Assembly (NCBI GenBank): GCA_016192455.1 | Contig: JACPUC010000019.1 | Span: 124,001 to 188,000 of the forward strand | DNA length: 64,000 nt | From: Candidatus Tectimicrobiota bacterium | Lineage (GTDB): Bacteria > JACPUC01 | Direction: 5' to 3' | Shown here: positions 30,767 through 39,034 of the stretch, piece by piece | Numbering within the stretch: the stretch's first letter is position 1 | Layout: every line of letters begins with the position of its first letter | The notes under the pieces: model-generated | Seen by the model: the letters and a program-made list of their open reading frames with translations, nothing else | What the model was told of the DNA's origin: nothing | Database searches by the model: none | Position numbers and translations under genes: made by a program

Positions 30767-31879
30767 TTACTGGATCATGCGCGATATATCATTAAAGACG
30801 GCAAAGAGCATGAGGAGGATGAGGAATGCCAAGCCGACCTGCTGGGCGATCTCGCGCTTACGCACGCTGACGGGGCGTCCGGTGAGCGCCTCGATGGAGA
30901 AGAAGAAGATGTGGCCGCCATCAAGCAGAGGGATCGGCAGCAGGTTCAAGATGCCAAGGTTGATGGAGATGAGGGCCACGAACTGCGCGTACGGCAACAG
31001 CCCCATTTCGGCCACCTTGCCGGCGGTGGTGAAGATGAGGATGGGGCCGCCGATCGACTTCGCCGGAATCACTCCTTGCACGATCTTGACAATGGCCGTG
31101 ATGGTAAGGCTGATGATCTTCCAGGTCTCGGCAAACCCCTTCCCGATCGCGGCAATAGGGTTGTAGCGCTGGGTGAAGTAGTCGCCGCCGGCCACGATGC
31201 CGACGATGCCCACCTCTTCTTTCTCGCCGAAGAGGTTCGTGTCGGTGCGCGAGGTGGGCGTGATGGTCAGGTCAAAGATGCGGTTCTCGCGCTGGATGGT
31301 GAACTTCACCGGCACGTTCGCTTTCTGGCGCACCACCGCGGTGAGTTCATCCCAGCTCTTCACCTCCCGGCCTTCCAGCGCCACGATCAGGTCGCCGGGC
31401 TGCACGCCGGCGGCGGCCGCCGGCATGTCCTGCCGCACCTCGCCGACGCTCGGTTTCAACACCGGCACGCCGATCAGGTAGACGACCACGAACACGAACA
31501 CCGCCAGGAAAAAGTTGAAGAACGGCCCCGCCGCGACGACGCTCAGCCGCTTGCCCACCGACTGCGTGGAGAAGGCCCGGGCCGGGTCGATCGGCGGCGC
31601 TCCCTGGGGTTGCTGCCCGGCAGCGTCCGCCTCTTTGGCGGCCGCTTCGAGCGAGCCCGGCTCTTCCCCATACATCTTCACGTACCCGCCCAGGGGAACC
31701 GCGGAGAGCACGTATTCGGTCTCGCCGAAGCGCCGGCGGAGGAGCTTGGGCCCAAAGCCGAGCGAGAAGGTTTCGACGAGGATTCCCACGCGCTTCGCGA
31801 CCAGGAAGTGACCCAGCTCATGGACGAAGATGAGCACGCCGAGCGCCACGACTGCGGAAAGGATGTACGAGATGGACAC
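30767..31879 (-). CDS. rseP: Site-2 protease RseP (RIP metalloprotease)
   Basis: Intramembrane zinc protease that cleaves anti-sigma factors and signal peptide remnants. 370 residues: HELGH at 20-24 in the first transmembrane helix, one PDZ domain (~140-215, VRQDMPAAAAGVQPGDLIVAL), and NLLPIPLLDGGH at 312-323 with the third zinc ligand; C-terminal helix ~345-368. The length suits the one-PDZ form rather than the two-PDZ E. coli protein. Downstream of lolA on the same strand; bamA and dxr, common neighbours, are absent. Confidence 0.95.
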   Translation of the reverse strand: MSISYILSAVVALGVLIFVHELGHFLVAKRVGILVETFSLGFGPKLLRRRFGETEYVLSAVPLGGYVKMYGEEPGSLEAAAKEADAAGQQPQGAPPIDPARAFSTQSVGKRLSVVAAGPFFNFFLAVFVFVVVYLIGVPVLKPSVGEVRQDMPAAAAGVQPGDLIVALEGREVKSWDELTAVVRQKANVPVKFTIQRENRIFDLTITPTSRTDTNLFGEKEEVGIVGIVAGGDYFTQRYNPIAAIGKGFAETWKIISLTITAIVKIVQGVIPAKSIGGPILIFTTAGKVAEMGLLPYAQFVALISINLGILNLLPIPLLDGGHIFFFSIEALTGRPVSVRKREIAQQVGLAFLILLMLFAVFNDISRMIQ

Positions 31880-32025: not shown

Positions 32026-32787
32026 CTAGCGCCCCGGCCGAGGAGCAGCGGGGGAGGTGATGATCTCCACCCCCGCTAGAGGTTGAAAGGTAAACGTCCC
32101 CGCCTCGACGTCTCCGTTCACCTCGAGGTTGGAGAGGAAGAGCGTGGTGGTGTTGCCGAGGATGTCAAAGGTCGTAACCCGCTTCACCAGGAGGCCCTGC
32201 CGATCCACGAAGAGCAACATCCTCGTAACGGTAGTATGGGGAACTTTCGGTCGCAGTTGCAAGCCATATTCATCGGCCTGCGTTTGGCTGGAATCCTCCA
32301 CCTTCTCGAGGTCAAAATCCTGCCGCAGTCTCCCCTCGCCGGACAAGAAAGCCCGCACAAAATCATCCTGACCGGCCGCCGCCTCGATCATCACCTGGTT
32401 GCTGGCCGGAAAGTAGAGCCAGAGTGTGGTGCCGTCGGAGATAATGAGCCGCTTATCCGGCTGCGCGTACTCCCAGCGCATCTTGCCGGGTTTCACGATG
32501 ACGACACGACCCACGGCCGTGCGGGTTCGCCCCAGAGCTTTGTTGTAGGCCTCCTGCCGAAAATCGGCGCGCAAGGACTCTGTACCTTGGTAGCGCGCCT
32601 GCACGAGGTCGGCTATCTCCTGCAGAGAGGGGGTCCCTTCCCCGGCCTGTTGCGCCAGGGGGACTTGGGCCAGACTGACTGGTGCCAGGAGAACTGGAGC
32701 CAGGGCGAGGAGCCCGAGGAGCATGGCGAGGAGTTGAGGTAAAAGCAGACCTGGGACCCTCCGGGGATATGCTGGTGTACGACGCAT
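32026..32787 (-). CDS. lolA: Outer-membrane lipoprotein carrier protein LolA-like
   Basis: Periplasmic shuttle for lipoproteins between LolCDE and the outer membrane. 253 residues; long Leu-rich signal peptide (~12-45), then the LolA fold: IADLVQARYQGTESLRADFRQE, VVIVKPGKMRWEYAQPDKRL, ISDGTTLWLYFP and a final FTFQPLAGVEIIT. ATG 32787 is used. Sequence match is to the broad LolA/DUF outer-membrane carrier family, so LolA is the best but not the only reading. Lies between purN and rseP. Confidence 0.85.
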   Translation of the reverse strand: MRRTPAYPRRVPGLLLPQLLAMLLGLLALAPVLLAPVSLAQVPLAQQAGEGTPSLQEIADLVQARYQGTESLRADFRQEAYNKALGRTRTAVGRVVIVKPGKMRWEYAQPDKRLIISDGTTLWLYFPASNQVMIEAAAGQDDFVRAFLSGEGRLRQDFDLEKVEDSSQTQADEYGLQLRPKVPHTTVTRMLLFVDRQGLLVKRVTTFDILGNTTTLFLSNLEVNGDVEAGTFTFQPLAGVEIITSPAAPRPGR

Positions 32788-32968
32788 CAATGGTCTTGGC
32801 CACGCCGCGGCAGATGACCCTGCACGGACTGCAGCAGCGCAGGAGTTGCAACGCGGCGGGCGCGAAGACGCCCCCCGTCGCTGGGATCAAGCGCTCACTC
32901 CGGCGCCTGGCCTCGCCGGCGCGCCGCCGGGCGGCGCTGCACCGCGCTCGCGCGAGGCGCCGCGGCGC

Positions 32969-33613
32969 TCAGCCCTCCTTGACAGCCATGGAGGGCGAAA
33001 CAGGCCCGGGCTGGCCGCCGAGCACGCGCCGCCCCTGACGTCGCAGTCGGTTTTCGGCGACAAGCTGGATGGCCCGTGGGTAGATCTCGTGCTCGCGTTC
33101 GAGGATGCGGGCCGCCAGGGTCTCGGCGTCGTCCTCATCGTAGACCGGCACGGCCGCCTGCAGGATGATGGGGCCGGTGTCCACGCCTTCGTCCACGAAG
33201 TGCACCGTACAGCCGCTCACCTTGGCGCCGTGCTCGAGCGCCGCCCGCTGCGCCTCGAGGCCCGGAAACGCCGGCAGAAGCGAGGGATGGATGTTCAGGA
33301 TGCGTTGCGGATACGCCGCCAGCAGGCGCTTGCCGAGGATGCGCATGTAGCCCGCCAGGCAGACGAGATCCACCTCGTGCGCCTGCAGAACTTCCAGCAG
33401 CCGGGCGTCATACTCCTCGCGGCGCTCCCCTTTTCGCGCTGGCACGCAGACGGCGGGAACGCCGGCGCGTCGCGCCCGCTCCAGCCCGTAGGCGTCCGCC
33501 ACATTGCTCAGCACCACCGCCACCTGCGCCGCGCACGTTCCCGCGGCGCAGGCGTCGAGGATGGCCTGCAGGTTGGTCCCACGCCCTGAAATGAGGACAC
33601 CGAGGTTCAGCAT
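32969..33613 (-). CDS. purN: Phosphoribosylglycinamide formyltransferase
   Basis: Transfers formyl from 10-formyl-THF to GAR in purine synthesis. 214 residues from ATG 33613 (LNLGVLISGRGTNLQAILDA). Catalytic Asn and His lie in RILNIHPSLLPAFPGLEAQ, with the conserved CTVHFVDEGVDTGPIILQ. An in-frame GTG at 33625 is possible. The frame continues upstream to 33664 without support. No other purine gene is nearby. Confidence 0.94.
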   Translation of the reverse strand: MLNLGVLISGRGTNLQAILDACAAGTCAAQVAVVLSNVADAYGLERARRAGVPAVCVPARKGERREEYDARLLEVLQAHEVDLVCLAGYMRILGKRLLAAYPQRILNIHPSLLPAFPGLEAQRAALEHGAKVSGCTVHFVDEGVDTGPIILQAAVPVYDEDDAETLAARILEREHEIYPRAIQLVAENRLRRQGRRVLGGQPGPVSPSMAVKEG

Positions 33614-33739
33614 GTCGTTCAGCACGCCGGCGGACTCTCGCCCCCAAGGGCGGAACCGACGCACGCCGCACCGCTTCCGAGGTCGCCGGCCACCGGCGGC
33701 GCCGCTTCGGCGGAGGTGGTGTGACGCTCGCCCGGCTTT

Positions 33740-35902
33740 TCAGGCCGCTTTGATCTTGTGGAGGAGCGCGGCGTTTTCGGTGTGTCCGGTCATCCGCGCC
33801 ACGATCTTGCCGCGCACCGGCCGCCCGAGGAGGTAGAAGTCGCCGATGATGTCGAGAATCTTGTGGCGGACGAGCTCGTTCGGATAGCGCAATTCGGTGT
33901 TGATCACCCTGCCGTCATCAATGAGGATCACATTATCAAGCCGGCCGCCACCGGCCAACCCTTGGCTGCCGAGGACCTCGAAATCCTTCACGAAGCCAAA
34001 GGTGCGTGCCGGGGCAATCTCCTGGCGGAAGGACTGCGGCCCTTCGTAGACGAACTCGTGCGTCTGCCTGCCGAGGGGCGGCGGATACTCCAGGGTATAC
34101 TCTACCCGGAACGTATCGGATGGTTCAATGGTGATGCGCTTCCCGGCCGCCCCATTGCCGTCAACGGAAAAGGTGTCGGTGATGACGATCTCCTCGAACG
34201 GCGCGTCCTGCTCCTCGATGCCGCCATCCTCGATAAGCTGACAGAAATCAATGGCCGAGCCATCCATGATCGGCACCTCGTCGTTCATCTTCACGAGCAG
34301 GTTGGTGATCTGATACATGTGGAGGACGGCCATGAGGTGCTCCACCGTGCGCGCCACCGCGGTGCCGTTCTGCAGGCAAGTGGCGTAGAGGGAGGAGCTG
34401 ACGTAGGAGAGGTGGGCCGGGATGAGCTCGCCGGAGGAGATGGAGCCGAAGTTGATGCCGCTGTTCGGTGGCAGCGGCAGGAGGATGAGCCCGGTTTTCA
34501 AGCCGGAGTGCAGGCCCTGCCCGCAGAGCACCACGCTCCGCTTCAGGGTCCGCTGACGTCGCCCATAGGGGCTGGCGCTGAGGCTGCCGCGCAAGCCGTA
34601 CGAGCGGACCTTGCGCTCCAGGCGATGCGCATCCATCCGCAGGCGCTCTGCCACGCTCTTCAGCTCCCAGTTGTTCTTCTTCAGGTGATAGCTGATGAAC
34701 TCACGCTCCCAGGCGCGTCGGGCTTCGTCGAGGGATTGGAAGCCCTCGAAGCCGATGGTGGGGCGGATCGCTTCGCAGCGCAGCGGGTACGGGAGATCGG
34801 CGAGGTGAATGCACCTCGTCGGCGTCGCCAGGACGACGCGCTCGATGGTCGTCTTCAGCTCCTTGACGTTGCCCGGCCAGGAGTAGTTCACCAGCGCCGC
34901 CAGCGCTTCGTCATCGATCTCTCGCGCCGGGCGACCCGTGAGGTTGGCGAAATACGTGATGAAGTATTGCAGGAAGAGCGGCAGATCGCTGCGGCAGTCA
35001 CGCAAGGCGGGGATGCGGCACGGCTCGTCGGCGAAGAACTCGGACCGCAGCAGGCCGCCCTCCTCCGAGAGCTGCACGGGGTTCGTTGCTGAAACGAGGA
35101 GGCGGAACCCCGCCGCCTCCTCCTGCCAAGCTGAGCGGAGCAGCTCGAGCAGGTGGGTCTGCCCCTCGAGCAAGAGCTGATCCACATTGTCGAGGAACAG
35201 GCTGCCGCCGTTGAAGGCGGCAAGCGGAGCTTTCCCGTTCGTTGCCGCAGGTTCGGGGTGGCACGCCGCCAGCAGGTCCTCGCTGCGCAGGCGGTGCGGC
35301 AGCGTGCTGCACAACACCTTATAGAAGGGCCCCTCGCGGAAACGACTCTCGGCGTGCACGAACCGCGCCGCAAACTCCTTCCCCGCGCCCACCTCGCCGA
35401 CGATGAGCAGGGGTGTGTCGCCCTGGGCCTCTTGGAGGAGGCGTCGGCGCACGGCCCGCAGCTTGGCGCTGCGCCCGAGCCACGGCTGCCGGTCCGCCTC
35501 GACCTCCAGGTGGCGCACCCTGATCCTGGCCAGCTTGTGGTGCTCGAGGGCCTTGTTGACGGTAACCAGGACCTCGTTGATGGAGAACGGTTTCTCGATG
35601 TAATCGAAGGCGCCAAGCTTGGTCGCCTTGACCGCGGTGTCGATGTTGCCGTGGCCGGACATCATGATGACCTGCACCTCGGCGCAGACCTGCCGGATTG
35701 CCTGCAAGGTCTCGAGACCGTCCATGCCGGGGAGCCAGATGTCGAGCAGGACGAGGTCGGGAGGGTCGTTATGCACCACCGCGAGCGCCGTCTGGCCGTC
35801 GCCGACCTGACGGACCTCGAACCCCTCGTCGCTGAGGATGCCGGCAAGGCTCGTTTGAATGCTCGGTTCATCGTCCACAATGAGAATCTGGGCGCGTTGC
35901 AC
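33740..35902 (-). CDS. lpxC: Fusion: NtrX/NtrC-type response regulator + LpxC (UDP-3-O-acyl-GlcNAc deacetylase)
   Basis: A single 720-residue frame. Residues 1-120: receiver domain with DD at 10-11, phospho-acceptor D54 (LVLLDIWLPG) and K104. Residues ~140-375: AAA+ domain with Walker A GEVGAGKE (169-176); Walker B reads FLDN so the usual glutamate is N239, and the GAFTGA loop expected near 205-225 is replaced by unrelated sequence. Residues ~395-437: Fis-type HTH. Residues 449-720: complete LpxC starting RQRTLKRSVVLCGQGLHSG, with zinc ligands H522, H680, D684 and catalytic E521, K681, D688, H707. LpxC performs the committed step of lipid A synthesis. GTG 35902 has GGAGGAA before it. No stop or frame slip separates the halves. 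Downstream of the NtrY-like kinase by 139 bases. Sigma-54 activation is unlikely; LpxC activity likely. Confidence 0.93.
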   Translation of the reverse strand: MQRAQILIVDDEPSIQTSLAGILSDEGFEVRQVGDGQTALAVVHNDPPDLVLLDIWLPGMDGLETLQAIRQVCAEVQVIMMSGHGNIDTAVKATKLGAFDYIEKPFSINEVLVTVNKALEHHKLARIRVRHLEVEADRQPWLGRSAKLRAVRRRLLQEAQGDTPLLIVGEVGAGKEFAARFVHAESRFREGPFYKVLCSTLPHRLRSEDLLAACHPEPAATNGKAPLAAFNGGSLFLDNVDQLLLEGQTHLLELLRSAWQEEAAGFRLLVSATNPVQLSEEGGLLRSEFFADEPCRIPALRDCRSDLPLFLQYFITYFANLTGRPAREIDDEALAALVNYSWPGNVKELKTTIERVVLATPTRCIHLADLPYPLRCEAIRPTIGFEGFQSLDEARRAWEREFISYHLKKNNWELKSVAERLRMDAHRLERKVRSYGLRGSLSASPYGRRQRTLKRSVVLCGQGLHSGLKTGLILLPLPPNSGINFGSISSGELIPAHLSYVSSSLYATCLQNGTAVARTVEHLMAVLHMYQITNLLVKMNDEVPIMDGSAIDFCQLIEDGGIEEQDAPFEEIVITDTFSVDGNGAAGKRITIEPSDTFRVEYTLEYPPPLGRQTHEFVYEGPQSFRQEIAPARTFGFVKDFEVLGSQGLAGGGRLDNVILIDDGRVINTELRYPNELVRHKILDIIGDFYLLGRPVRGKIVARMTGHTENAALLHKIKAA

Positions 35903-36041: not shown

Positions 36042-38336
36042 CTACGCCACCGAGCCCAAGTGCGGCAGCGCTCGCCGATTGGGCGCCGAACGCGGCAGCT
36101 CGATGACGAACGTCGCGCCCTCGTGCTCGTTCGGTTTGGCGCAGATCGACCCACCGTGGTCCGCGATGATGCGGTTCACGATCGCCAGCCCAAGGCCGGT
36201 GCCGCGTTTCTTGGTTGAGAAGTAGGGCAGGAAGAGGCGCTCCAGGTCGTCGGCGCCGATGCCCCTGCCGTTGTCCCGCACCTCGATGCGCACGTGGTCC
36301 TCGGCGTCGAGGAGCTCGGTGCGGATGTCGACGCGTCCGCCGCTGCCGTTCATCGCTTCGATGGCGTTCTCGATCAGGTTGATGAAGACGCGCCGCATCT
36401 GCTCTCCATCGAGGCTCATGGTCGAAATCCGCGGGTCGTGGTGCGCCTCGATGCTGACGTAGCGGTGCGAGCTTTGGTAGAGGAGGACGACATCGTCGAT
36501 GATCTGGCGCAGCTCGTTGGGACGCGGCTTGGCCTCCGGCATGCGGGCAAACTTCGAGAACTCGTTCACCAGGGCTTTCAACCCTTCCACCTGTTCGATG
36601 ATGGTGCCCGTGCACTGCGCCAGGAGCTCGCCGAAATCGCCGCCGTTGCTGCGATACTGCCGCCGCAGCCGCTGCGCCGAGAGCTGGATCGGCGTCAGCG
36701 GGTTCTTGATCTCGTGGGCCAGGCCCCGTGCCACCTCGCGCCACGCCGCCACCTTCTGCGCCTTGATGAGCTCGGTGAGGTCATCGAACACCACCACCAT
36801 GCCACGGTAGGCGCCGGAGGCTTCGCAGAGCACGGCGACGCTCGTGAGCAAGGTGACGAGGCCGCGCTCGGTCTGCACGGTGATCTGATCCTCGATGCTC
36901 GGCCGCCGCTGCTCGTGCATGCGTCGGATGAGGTTGCGGATGAGGTTCAGCTCGCTGGCGTGAAAGACCTCCCGGTAGTGGCGCCCGCGCAGCGCTTCCG
37001 GGCGGCGCCCCAGGATGCGGGCGGCGGACTTGTTGATCGTTGAGATGCGCCCCGTGCTGTCGATCGAGATAACGCCGGTGGCGATGCTCTCCAGGACGGT
37101 CTCCATGTAAGTGCGGCGCTCGTCCAACTCGAGGTTGGACTGCTTCAGCTCGAGGTTGGCGCGATGCAGCTCCTGGCGGCTCTTGCGCAGGTCGTCCGTC
37201 ATCTGATTGAAGGCGCGCACCAGGGTCCCGACCTCATCATCGACCTGCACGTCGATGTGCACGTCGAGGTTGCCGGCGGCCACCCGCCGCGTCCCTTCGG
37301 CCAGCTCCTCGATGGGGATGGTGATGCGCTTGGCCAGGTAGAAGGCCAGCCAGGTCCCGGAGAAGACCAGAGCCAGGGTGATCATGAGGAAGGTCATGAT
37401 CTGCACCGAGGTGACCGGCTTGCGCAGAAGTTTCAGTTGTCGGTACTCCTCGAAGGTGCGGTTGATCGCCCCCATCCGGGCGACGAGGCTGCGAGGTACG
37501 TAGTACGATACGACAACCAGTCCGAGCGAGGGTTCCGCCGCGCTCTTGCGAATCGGCTGGATGCCGCGAATCACGTCACCCACCCCGACCGAGGCCACCT
37601 CGGTTGTCGCCTTGCCTTTCAAAGCCTGTTGCAAGACACCCTTGTCGACGCTCAGGAGGATATCGGGTTCGACGCTGGCCCGCTGCACGCCGTGCACCTG
37701 CTGGAGCTTCAAATCGAACACCTGCAGCGCGTCAAGGGGGTGATCACGGACCTCCGTGTCGAGCACCTTGGCGAGCTGCGAGTCATTCTCCTGCTCGAGG
37801 AGGTTGCCCTCCAGCACCTGCCGCATGACGCGCTCGGCGTAGAAGAGGGCCTGGCGTTCGGAGTTGCGGTAGTATTGCTGGGCCACGCTCAAGGAGTCGG
37901 AGAGCGCTTTCTCGACCTGGACGGTGAACCACCCTTCAATACTGCTGCGCACCAGACCGCTGGCAACGAGGAAGAGGAGGATCGAGGGAATCAGCGATAA
38001 GCCCACAAACGCCATGATGAGCTTGGAGCGAAAGCTCCCCCAGGCCTGGCGCCGGCGCTCCTCGAGGACAAATTTCACGAGGTTGCGCAGGATGAGGAGG
38101 ATCAGGAGACTGAGCAGGATGATGTAGAGGTGCTCGAGGGCGAAGACGACAATGTTATTCGCGAGGGACGTGGAGACCCGCAAGCCCTGCAGGTAGATGC
38201 GCACGGCGGTGAGCGCCAGCGCCAGAAGCGTCAAGGAGATGAGGAGGGTGCGGTAGCGCCGTCGCCGCAATTCAGGCAGCTCGCGCCCGGCGGGCGCGGC
38301 GGCGGGCGCGACGACCTTGGCATCAGCCTCTCTCAT
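36042..38336 (-). CDS. NtrY-like membrane sensor histidine kinase
   Basis: 764 residues. N-terminal transmembrane helices (~28-50, ~58-85, ~102-124), a periplasmic segment, another helix (~310-335), HAMP (TIPIEELAEGTRRVAAGNLD), a coiled linker, PAS (~400-510, ESIATGVISIDSTGRI), HisKA with the phospho-His in AHEIKNPLTPIQLSAQRL near residue 540, and HATPase_c (NLIENAIEAM, DNGRGIGADDL, GTGLGLAIV). The multi-helix head and NPLTPIQLSAQRL box are typical of NtrY. ATG 38336 overlaps the stop of the DUF4390 gene (ATGA), so they are coupled. Its partner is most likely the regulator-LpxC fusion just downstream. Confidence 0.93.
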   Translation of the reverse strand: MREADAKVVAPAAAPAGRELPELRRRRYRTLLISLTLLALALTAVRIYLQGLRVSTSLANNIVVFALEHLYIILLSLLILLILRNLVKFVLEERRRQAWGSFRSKLIMAFVGLSLIPSILLFLVASGLVRSSIEGWFTVQVEKALSDSLSVAQQYYRNSERQALFYAERVMRQVLEGNLLEQENDSQLAKVLDTEVRDHPLDALQVFDLKLQQVHGVQRASVEPDILLSVDKGVLQQALKGKATTEVASVGVGDVIRGIQPIRKSAAEPSLGLVVVSYYVPRSLVARMGAINRTFEEYRQLKLLRKPVTSVQIMTFLMITLALVFSGTWLAFYLAKRITIPIEELAEGTRRVAAGNLDVHIDVQVDDEVGTLVRAFNQMTDDLRKSRQELHRANLELKQSNLELDERRTYMETVLESIATGVISIDSTGRISTINKSAARILGRRPEALRGRHYREVFHASELNLIRNLIRRMHEQRRPSIEDQITVQTERGLVTLLTSVAVLCEASGAYRGMVVVFDDLTELIKAQKVAAWREVARGLAHEIKNPLTPIQLSAQRLRRQYRSNGGDFGELLAQCTGTIIEQVEGLKALVNEFSKFARMPEAKPRPNELRQIIDDVVLLYQSSHRYVSIEAHHDPRISTMSLDGEQMRRVFINLIENAIEAMNGSGGRVDIRTELLDAEDHVRIEVRDNGRGIGADDLERLFLPYFSTKKRGTGLGLAIVNRIIADHGGSICAKPNEHEGATFVIELPRSAPNRRALPHLGSVA

Positions 38337-39034
38337 AGCTCAGCTTCCCCTTTGGGGATCGTTGCCAGGGTGAACCGCGGCGAACTCTGCCAGTTCGTAT
38401 CAACATCCCAAAGCGAAACAAAGAAGAGCAGGTATTTGAGCGGGAAGATCAACTTGATGGACTTGATCTCGACCTTCGTGCGCACGTAGTACGTTCCCTC
38501 CTGCTTCAGGCGCGCCGGCGGCATGAGGGCCACGCGGTCAAGCCCCTGCAGGAGCTGCTTCACCTTGCTGAAATCTTTCTCGATGGTCTGCGTCGTCACG
38601 CCGCTCGCATCGGTGGTGAAGAGGTACTCCTTCTTGAGCGCATCGTACTTCACCGTCTGACGCACCGCCGTCTGAAAGTCGGTGGCATCGATGCGGAAAC
38701 GCCGGTGCCGGCGGAGCTGGATCAGGTAGGTGAAGGTCGTCGGAATACCGCTGTGAATGGCCTCCTTGATCTCCTCTGTAATTCCTCCCTCCATATTGGC
38801 ATAGACGTGCAGATGGGCTGGCGAGTTCGACACCCGCACCGACGTCAGCGAGGCGCCCTCGGCCCCCCCCAGGACGACCGCGCTGAGGAACAGACCGCCA
38901 AGGAGGATGAGGACACGCCGCCACGACGCCCCCTCGCGGCACCGCCATCCTCTCCCATCCCAGAGGTTTCGCCGCATCTCGGCGGAGGCTGCCCCGCAAC
39001 CACCTGGGGAGAATTGAGCAGAAGACGCCAGCAC
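38333..39034 (-). CDS. DUF4390 domain protein
   Basis: 233 residues with a hydrophobic segment at ~40-60 (VLILLGGLFLSAVVLGG), a likely export signal after an unusually long basic head, then a DUF4390-like domain (VSNSPAHLHVYANMEGGIT, EEIKEAIHSGIPTTFTYLI, FPLKYLLFFVSLWDVDTNW). Function unknown; the family is usually next to NtrY/NtrX genes, as here. GTG 39034 has GAGGAGG 6 bases upstream; ATG 38977 would give a normal signal peptide but lacks a ribosome site. An 8-bp stem (39045-39052 / 39059-39066) abuts the ribosome site. Confidence 0.85.
   Translation of the reverse strand: MLASSAQFSPGGCGAASAEMRRNLWDGRGWRCREGASWRRVLILLGGLFLSAVVLGGAEGASLTSVRVSNSPAHLHVYANMEGGITEEIKEAIHSGIPTTFTYLIQLRRHRRFRIDATDFQTAVRQTVKYDALKKEYLFTTDASGVTTQTIEKDFSKVKQLLQGLDRVALMPPARLKQEGTYYVRTKVEIKSIKLIFPLKYLLFFVSLWDVDTNWQSSPRFTLATIPKGEAEL

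Follow-up and report, generated by a model that had tools for sequence, protein, structure and literature searches.

An NtrX-like receiver fused to LpxC in several bacterial phyla: a probable response regulator with a lipid A enzyme as its output

LpxC catalyzes the committed step in the synthesis of outer-membrane lipopolysaccharide (lipid A). In the window, by which we mean the whole stretch of 64,000 nucleotides analysed here, LpxC is encoded as the C-terminal part of a single 720-residue protein that begins with an NtrX-like receiver domain. Judging from sequence comparison across the genomes that share this architecture, we consider it probable that the protein is a response regulator with LpxC as its output, and that phosphorylation acts directly on the enzyme in some form.

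The fusion protein and its locus

The fusion gene, its domains and the neighboring genes lie on the minus strand of the window:

33740..35902, minus strand: fusion gene (NtrX-like receiver, degenerate AAA+, weak HTH, LpxC), 720 residues, GTG start
35561..35887, minus strand: receiver domain, residues 6-114 (Pfam PF00072, E 3e-32)
34778..35476, minus strand: sigma-54-type AAA+ domain and lid, residues 143-375 (GxxGxGK present, Walker B reading DN and not DE, GAFTGA absent)
34583..34720, minus strand: Fis-type HTH remnant, about residues 395-440 (HTH_8, E 0.023, sub-threshold)
33749..34555, minus strand: complete LpxC domain, residues 450-718 (Pfam PF03331, E 1.3e-79; TIGR00325, 243.8 bits)
36042..38336, minus strand: NtrY-like membrane histidine kinase, 764 residues (HAMP, PAS, HisKA and HATPase; profile matches, orthologues in fusion genomes)
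38333-39034, minus strand: DUF4390-like protein (our own naming; no NCBIfam match)
32969..33664, minus strand: purN, conserved downstream neighbor
32026..32790, minus strand: lolA (outer-membrane lipoprotein carrier), conserved neighbor
30767..31879, minus strand: RseP/site-2-protease-like gene (named from sequence; conserved position)

The original prediction, made from this DNA alone, held that a regulator runs in frame into a complete LpxC, and this is what we find. No stop or frameshift was found inside the frame at 33740-35902, and a GGAGG ribosome-binding-like motif lies just 5' of the GTG start; a sigma-70 promoter scan gave no match. The HTH-like segment ends near residue 437 and LpxC begins near residues 448-450, which agrees with the predicted linker of about 10 residues. 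The LpxC profile match spans the whole domain and exceeds both curated cut-offs (267.9 bits against 27 for PF03331 and 243.8 against 187.25 for TIGR00325). The key residues of the domain are E521, H522, D547, T634, H680, K681, D684 and H707, and alignment to solved LpxC structures identified the zinc ligands and catalytic residues among them (H522, H680, D684, E521, T634, K681, H707). The fused enzyme shares these residues, the full domain and the status of sole copy with the free LpxC of E. coli, Pseudomonas and Aquifex, but differs from it in the receiver placed ahead, in a short C-terminal tail and in several residues that mark the fused clade. A single-sequence AlphaFold2 model of the 720-residue protein had a mean pLDDT of 33 and was discarded.

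The N-terminal 436 residues match Brucella NtrX (PDB 5m7n) with an E-value of 3e-64, a likeness that takes in the receiver, AAA and HTH regions and extends to the adjacent NtrY-like kinase. Unlike NtrX, the window protein is fused to LpxC, has degenerate ATP-hydrolysis residues in its AAA domain and stays far below the NtrX cut-off (283.3 bits for NCBIfam NF051870, where 600 are required); by these matches its N-terminal part is a homologue of NtrX and not an equivalog. In a tree of receivers, a short domain of modest resolution, the fused receivers cluster with Brucella NtrX and with the NtrX encoded beside lpxC-ntrY, apart from paralogues (support 96/93). The window receiver carries the acidic pair D10/D11, the phosphoacceptor D54, S82 and K104, as expected of a phosphorylatable response regulator. 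The middle of the protein, which Pfam divides into a sigma-54-type AAA domain (residues 143-257) and an AAA lid (301-375), lacks both the GAFTGA loop and the Walker B DE by which sigma-54 activators (bEBPs) are recognized. The earlier description of a receiver-AAA-HTH regulator was accordingly right about the receiver and overstated the middle, where the AAA domain is without GAFTGA and the Walker B glutamate and the HTH is sub-threshold.

The NtrY-like kinase that had been placed just upstream is indeed encoded there, at 36042-38336 on the same strand and 139 bases away, and is the probable cognate kinase of the fused receiver. An NtrY orthologue is present in 19 of 20 fusion genomes tested, the exception being a 91%-complete metagenome-assembled genome (MAG), and it adjoins the fusion in the window, in the phylum of genome G042, in G031, G195, f65, f67 and G059. 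In other families of the Nitrospinota-like phylum described below, ntrY ends a mutS-galE-DUF4390-ntrY cluster with no neighboring receiver gene and the fusion heads a purN-lolA-rseP cluster; the window keeps both halves joined. The DUF4390-like gene is found repeatedly just upstream of ntrY in this order, and its product may be part of an NtrY sensing module. ARAGORN reported a 94-nucleotide tRNA-Cys at 32564-32657 (minus strand) within the lolA-like frame, which is probably a false call.

Distribution and origin of the fusion

In a sampling of one genome per family across Bacteria, the same long LpxC frame was found in G005, G031 and G042, with 43-50% identity to the window protein over full-length alignments. 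The phylum of G005, whose name we infer to be very probably Nitrospinota, was sampled with 77 genomes from nine families and 24 genera. LpxC was found in 65 of them, as 56 frames of at least 670 residues, 4 genuine shorter receiver-LpxC proteins and 5 short frames cut by contig ends (G098, G102, G108, G113 and G122). All four sampled genomes in the phylum of G042 carry the fusion (4/4), while the window's phylum and that of G031 are represented by one genome each. In the phylum of G008, where LpxC was found in 40 of 45 genomes, we read 29 other loci: 27 encode receiver-LpxC proteins of about 435-496 residues, the sole fused form there, and the other 2 run off the end of a contig. Loci L153 and L159 are also contig-end-cut short frames. 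One further case, G195, lies outside those phyla according to exhaustive phylum lists. The fused genes that were read directly number 89 (61 + 27 + 1) and come from about six phyla. The search for the same fusion in other lineages, proposed with the original prediction, has thus returned it from many independent genomes of several phyla.

The source genome (G000, a MAG that is 88% complete) has one LpxC, the fused one, and the proposed search for a second, free copy found none. Each fusion genome examined contains one LpxC, and whole phyla have the fused form as their only LpxC. None of the contrary findings named in advance (a stop, a frameshift, a second lpxC, lost active-site residues) was encountered. 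All 20 fusion genomes checked for LpxB have it (20/20), which indicates that lipid A synthesis is intact; the fused LpxC, which has no second copy beside it in these LpxB-containing genomes, is a predicted deacetylase. In the LpxC tree all fused enzymes fall into a single clade (support 100/99), and therefore one fusion event followed by mostly vertical descent or few transfers is the simplest history. No description of a receiver-LpxC fusion was found in open-access papers; protein databases may list the architecture already.

Some other LpxC loci deserve mention. Genome G355 has two LpxC matches on separate contigs, with frames of 315 and 274 residues. Long LpxC frames of 626-757 residues with an additional N-terminal part of 190-320 residues (L180, L181, L182 and L183, in G191, G221, G293 and G314) were rejected as fusions of the present type, since that part is not a receiver. 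L180, L181 and L183 were scanned and are LpxC-FabZ proteins whose N-terminal part has no Pfam match. LpxC-FabZ likewise places LpxC within a multidomain protein, but the partner there is a C-terminal metabolic enzyme and not an N-terminal regulatory receiver.

Conservation, decay and deletion along the fusion

The two ends of the protein are conserved and its middle is not. Receiver residues D11, D54, S82 and K104 are invariant in 61 of 61 fusions, with D or E at position 10, and the same quintet is found in 29/29 sequences of a second alignment, dominated by the receiver-LpxC proteins of the G008 phylum. The LpxC catalytic residues are intact in all 60 readable fusions and in all 29 sequences of the second alignment. 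A GAFTGA-like motif occurs in 0 of 61 fusions. The Walker B signature hhhDE survives in 2 of 61, whereas all nine free NtrC-type paralogues taken from these genomes have it (9/9). When fusions are compared pairwise, mean identity reaches 70% in the receiver and 71% in LpxC, versus 41% for AAA and 47% for HTH where present; the order is reversed in the nine free regulators (receiver 42%, AAA 59%), which serve as a comparison set of paralogues and not of strict orthologues. The unfused NtrX beside lpxC-ntrY in G056 retains both GAFTGA and DE. Walker A is present in 56 of the 61 fusions, which suggests some remaining use of the AAA fold, perhaps in nucleotide binding or oligomerization, and HTH-like sequence is still found in many members, so that residual DNA binding is possible. 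In the explanation that fits these patterns best, AAA and HTH in the window's lineage would be relics or a spacer. The fused LpxC also has clade-specific residues (K538, which is Glu in 21 of 29 free LpxC, Y530, C554 and G471); these, K538 above all, are candidate contact sites or may simply reflect ancestry.

The AAA domain is wholly missing in 5 of 61 fusions, in which 43-115 residues separate the receiver from LpxC. Four of these proteins consist only of a receiver, a linker of 43-61 residues and LpxC (G126, 466 residues; G125, 460; G081, 494; G008, 430), and the fifth (G059, 514 residues) has receiver, HTH and LpxC without AAA. Fusions without AAA, including the phylum with receiver-LpxC only, are spread over three or more separate positions in the LpxC tree, which implies no fewer than three deletions of the domain. 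NtrY and receiver-LpxC have overlapping reading frames in G125 and G126, and therefore these loci amount to a two-component system with LpxC as its sole visible output. The linker of the receiver-LpxC proteins varies between 35 and 57 residues, a variability that speaks against a rigid relay. The repeated deletion of AAA is our strongest argument that the link between receiver and LpxC, and not regulation of DNA, is what selection keeps.

Possible modes of control of LpxC

Relations between NtrYX and lpxC are also found outside the fusion. An unfused lpxC lies directly before ntrY-ntrX in G056, G037 and G303, which belong to two lineages (G056; G037 and G303). These clusters encode a GAFTGA-type NtrX and are likely a forerunner or a parallel of the fusion:

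L114:6071-10779: unfused lpxC-ntrY-ntrX cluster
L119:4733-9293: unfused lpxC-ntrY-ntrX cluster
L199:2578-7099: unfused lpxC-ntrY-ntrX cluster

Loss of NtrYX in R. sphaeroides raises lpxC mRNA 8.8-fold and increases LPS, and no NtrX site was found upstream of lpxC in that organism (PMC7240162); Caulobacter has a similar link between NtrYX and lpxC/LPS (PMC12444477). For the response regulator DVU2934 of Desulfovibrio vulgaris, lpxC is the single target mapped, and Syntrophobacter has its lpxC beside the operon orthologous to that of DVU2934 (PMC3333781). Pseudomonas LpxC is activated by direct binding of MurA (PMC9995270), and therefore a protein partner can tune this enzyme. The R. sphaeroides and Caulobacter systems tie the same kinase/regulator family to LpxC and to the amount of LPS, but their control is transcriptional and pleiotropic, while the link in the window is covalent. 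DVU2934, which we would guess to be an NtrX orthologue, is likewise a two-component regulator with lpxC as target, but there the proteins are separate and the regulation acts through DNA binding. Response regulators with an enzymatic output include CheB, PleD/GGDEF, EAL and HD-GYP proteins, in which the receiver is directly coupled to an enzyme as it is in receiver-LpxC. In the literature searched, we found no response regulator that has LpxC or any other enzyme of lipid A synthesis as its output.

The original prediction proposed direct control of LPS synthesis through receiver phosphorylation, and the comparison favors it clearly over the other readings, through the invariant phosphorylation and catalytic residues, the decaying middle and the retention of NtrY in nearly all fusion genomes. 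In such a system, the membrane kinase NtrY would sense an envelope or redox-type signal and phosphorylate Asp54 of the receiver. Phosphorylation would then alter the packing of the receiver on the tethered LpxC, its dimerization with it or the release of the enzyme, and the state of the receiver would set deacetylase activity, stability or membrane localization without a transcriptional step. Phosphotransfer from NtrY, its effect on LpxC and the direction of that effect are what we infer, as distinct from the fusion and its conservation, which are observed. By analogy with alphaproteobacteria, where NtrYX lowers LPS, signaling is slightly more likely to inhibit LpxC than to activate it. E. coli LpxC has a longer C-terminal degron tail, and the enzyme is under proteolytic control in enterobacteria. 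In fusions the tail after the last catalytic His has 13-23 residues, so that a degron for FtsH of the E. coli type is unlikely. Of 18 fusion genomes tested, 17 have a LapB zinc ribbon. The idea that the fusion arose because a LapB-type regulator had been lost is therefore unsupported, and LapB-type control of LpxC may coexist with the fusion.

The receiver could instead govern mainly the location or lifetime of LpxC, for instance by docking it on NtrY or by making it accessible to a protease, and hardly alter its catalytic rate. We regard this as possible but rather unlikely. NtrY is a membrane protein, Neisseria LpxC localizes to the inner membrane by way of Ght, a LapB homologue (PMC12444477), the variable linker would suit tethering, and proteolysis of enterobacterial LpxC sets a precedent for control of lifetime; yet strictly invariant phosphorylation residues exceed the needs of simple docking, and the short tail speaks against an FtsH degron of the E. 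coli type. It is improbable that the protein is still an NtrX-type transcription factor that carries LpxC as a passenger for co-expression or feedback (a trigger enzyme). Such a role would accord with the NtrX-like match over the full length of the regulator, with the control of envelope genes by NtrX in alphaproteobacteria (PMC7240162) and with the HTH-like segment in the window and many other members, but GAFTGA is absent, Walker B is lost in nearly all fusions, and AAA has been lost repeatedly while receiver and LpxC were kept, to the point that one whole phylum has receiver-LpxC only.

Two further readings concern the gene product itself. An internal start could yield free LpxC and leave the long protein a minor product; in the window, the boundary region offers a TTG in frame at residue 437 along with further start-like codons. 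Across 48 fusions, however, no in-frame ATG close to the boundary is accompanied by a Shine-Dalgarno-like motif (0/48), and only 8 have an ATG or GTG with such a motif, which makes this reading very improbable. That the source genome is a MAG raises the thought of a chimeric assembly or annotation join, to which we assign a negligible probability: the frame is open, the two parts meet at the same domain boundary in numerous independent genomes from several phyla, and assembly error is excluded because orthologous fusions are the sole LpxC in whole phyla.

Direct control of LpxC by its own receiver, our preferred reading, bears on two matters. The link between NtrYX and LPS has so far been puzzling, and many bacteria outside the enterobacteria have an LpxC without an FtsH degron; a covalent receiver-LpxC addresses how LpxC is controlled there, and natural versions without any DNA-regulating part make this question tractable in one protein. 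It is an evenly balanced possibility that the fusion represents a class of LPS control that is widespread but so far undescribed, in which LpxC is the phosphorylated output of a dedicated NtrY to receiver-LpxC system, the first direct phosphorelay switch of lipid A synthesis. If so, the older role of NtrYX would be in envelope and LPS control rather than in nitrogen. Since whole phyla have no LpxC other than the fusion, such a switch would be the normal means by which those organisms, very probably including marine nitrite oxidizers (Nitrospinota), balance their outer membrane.
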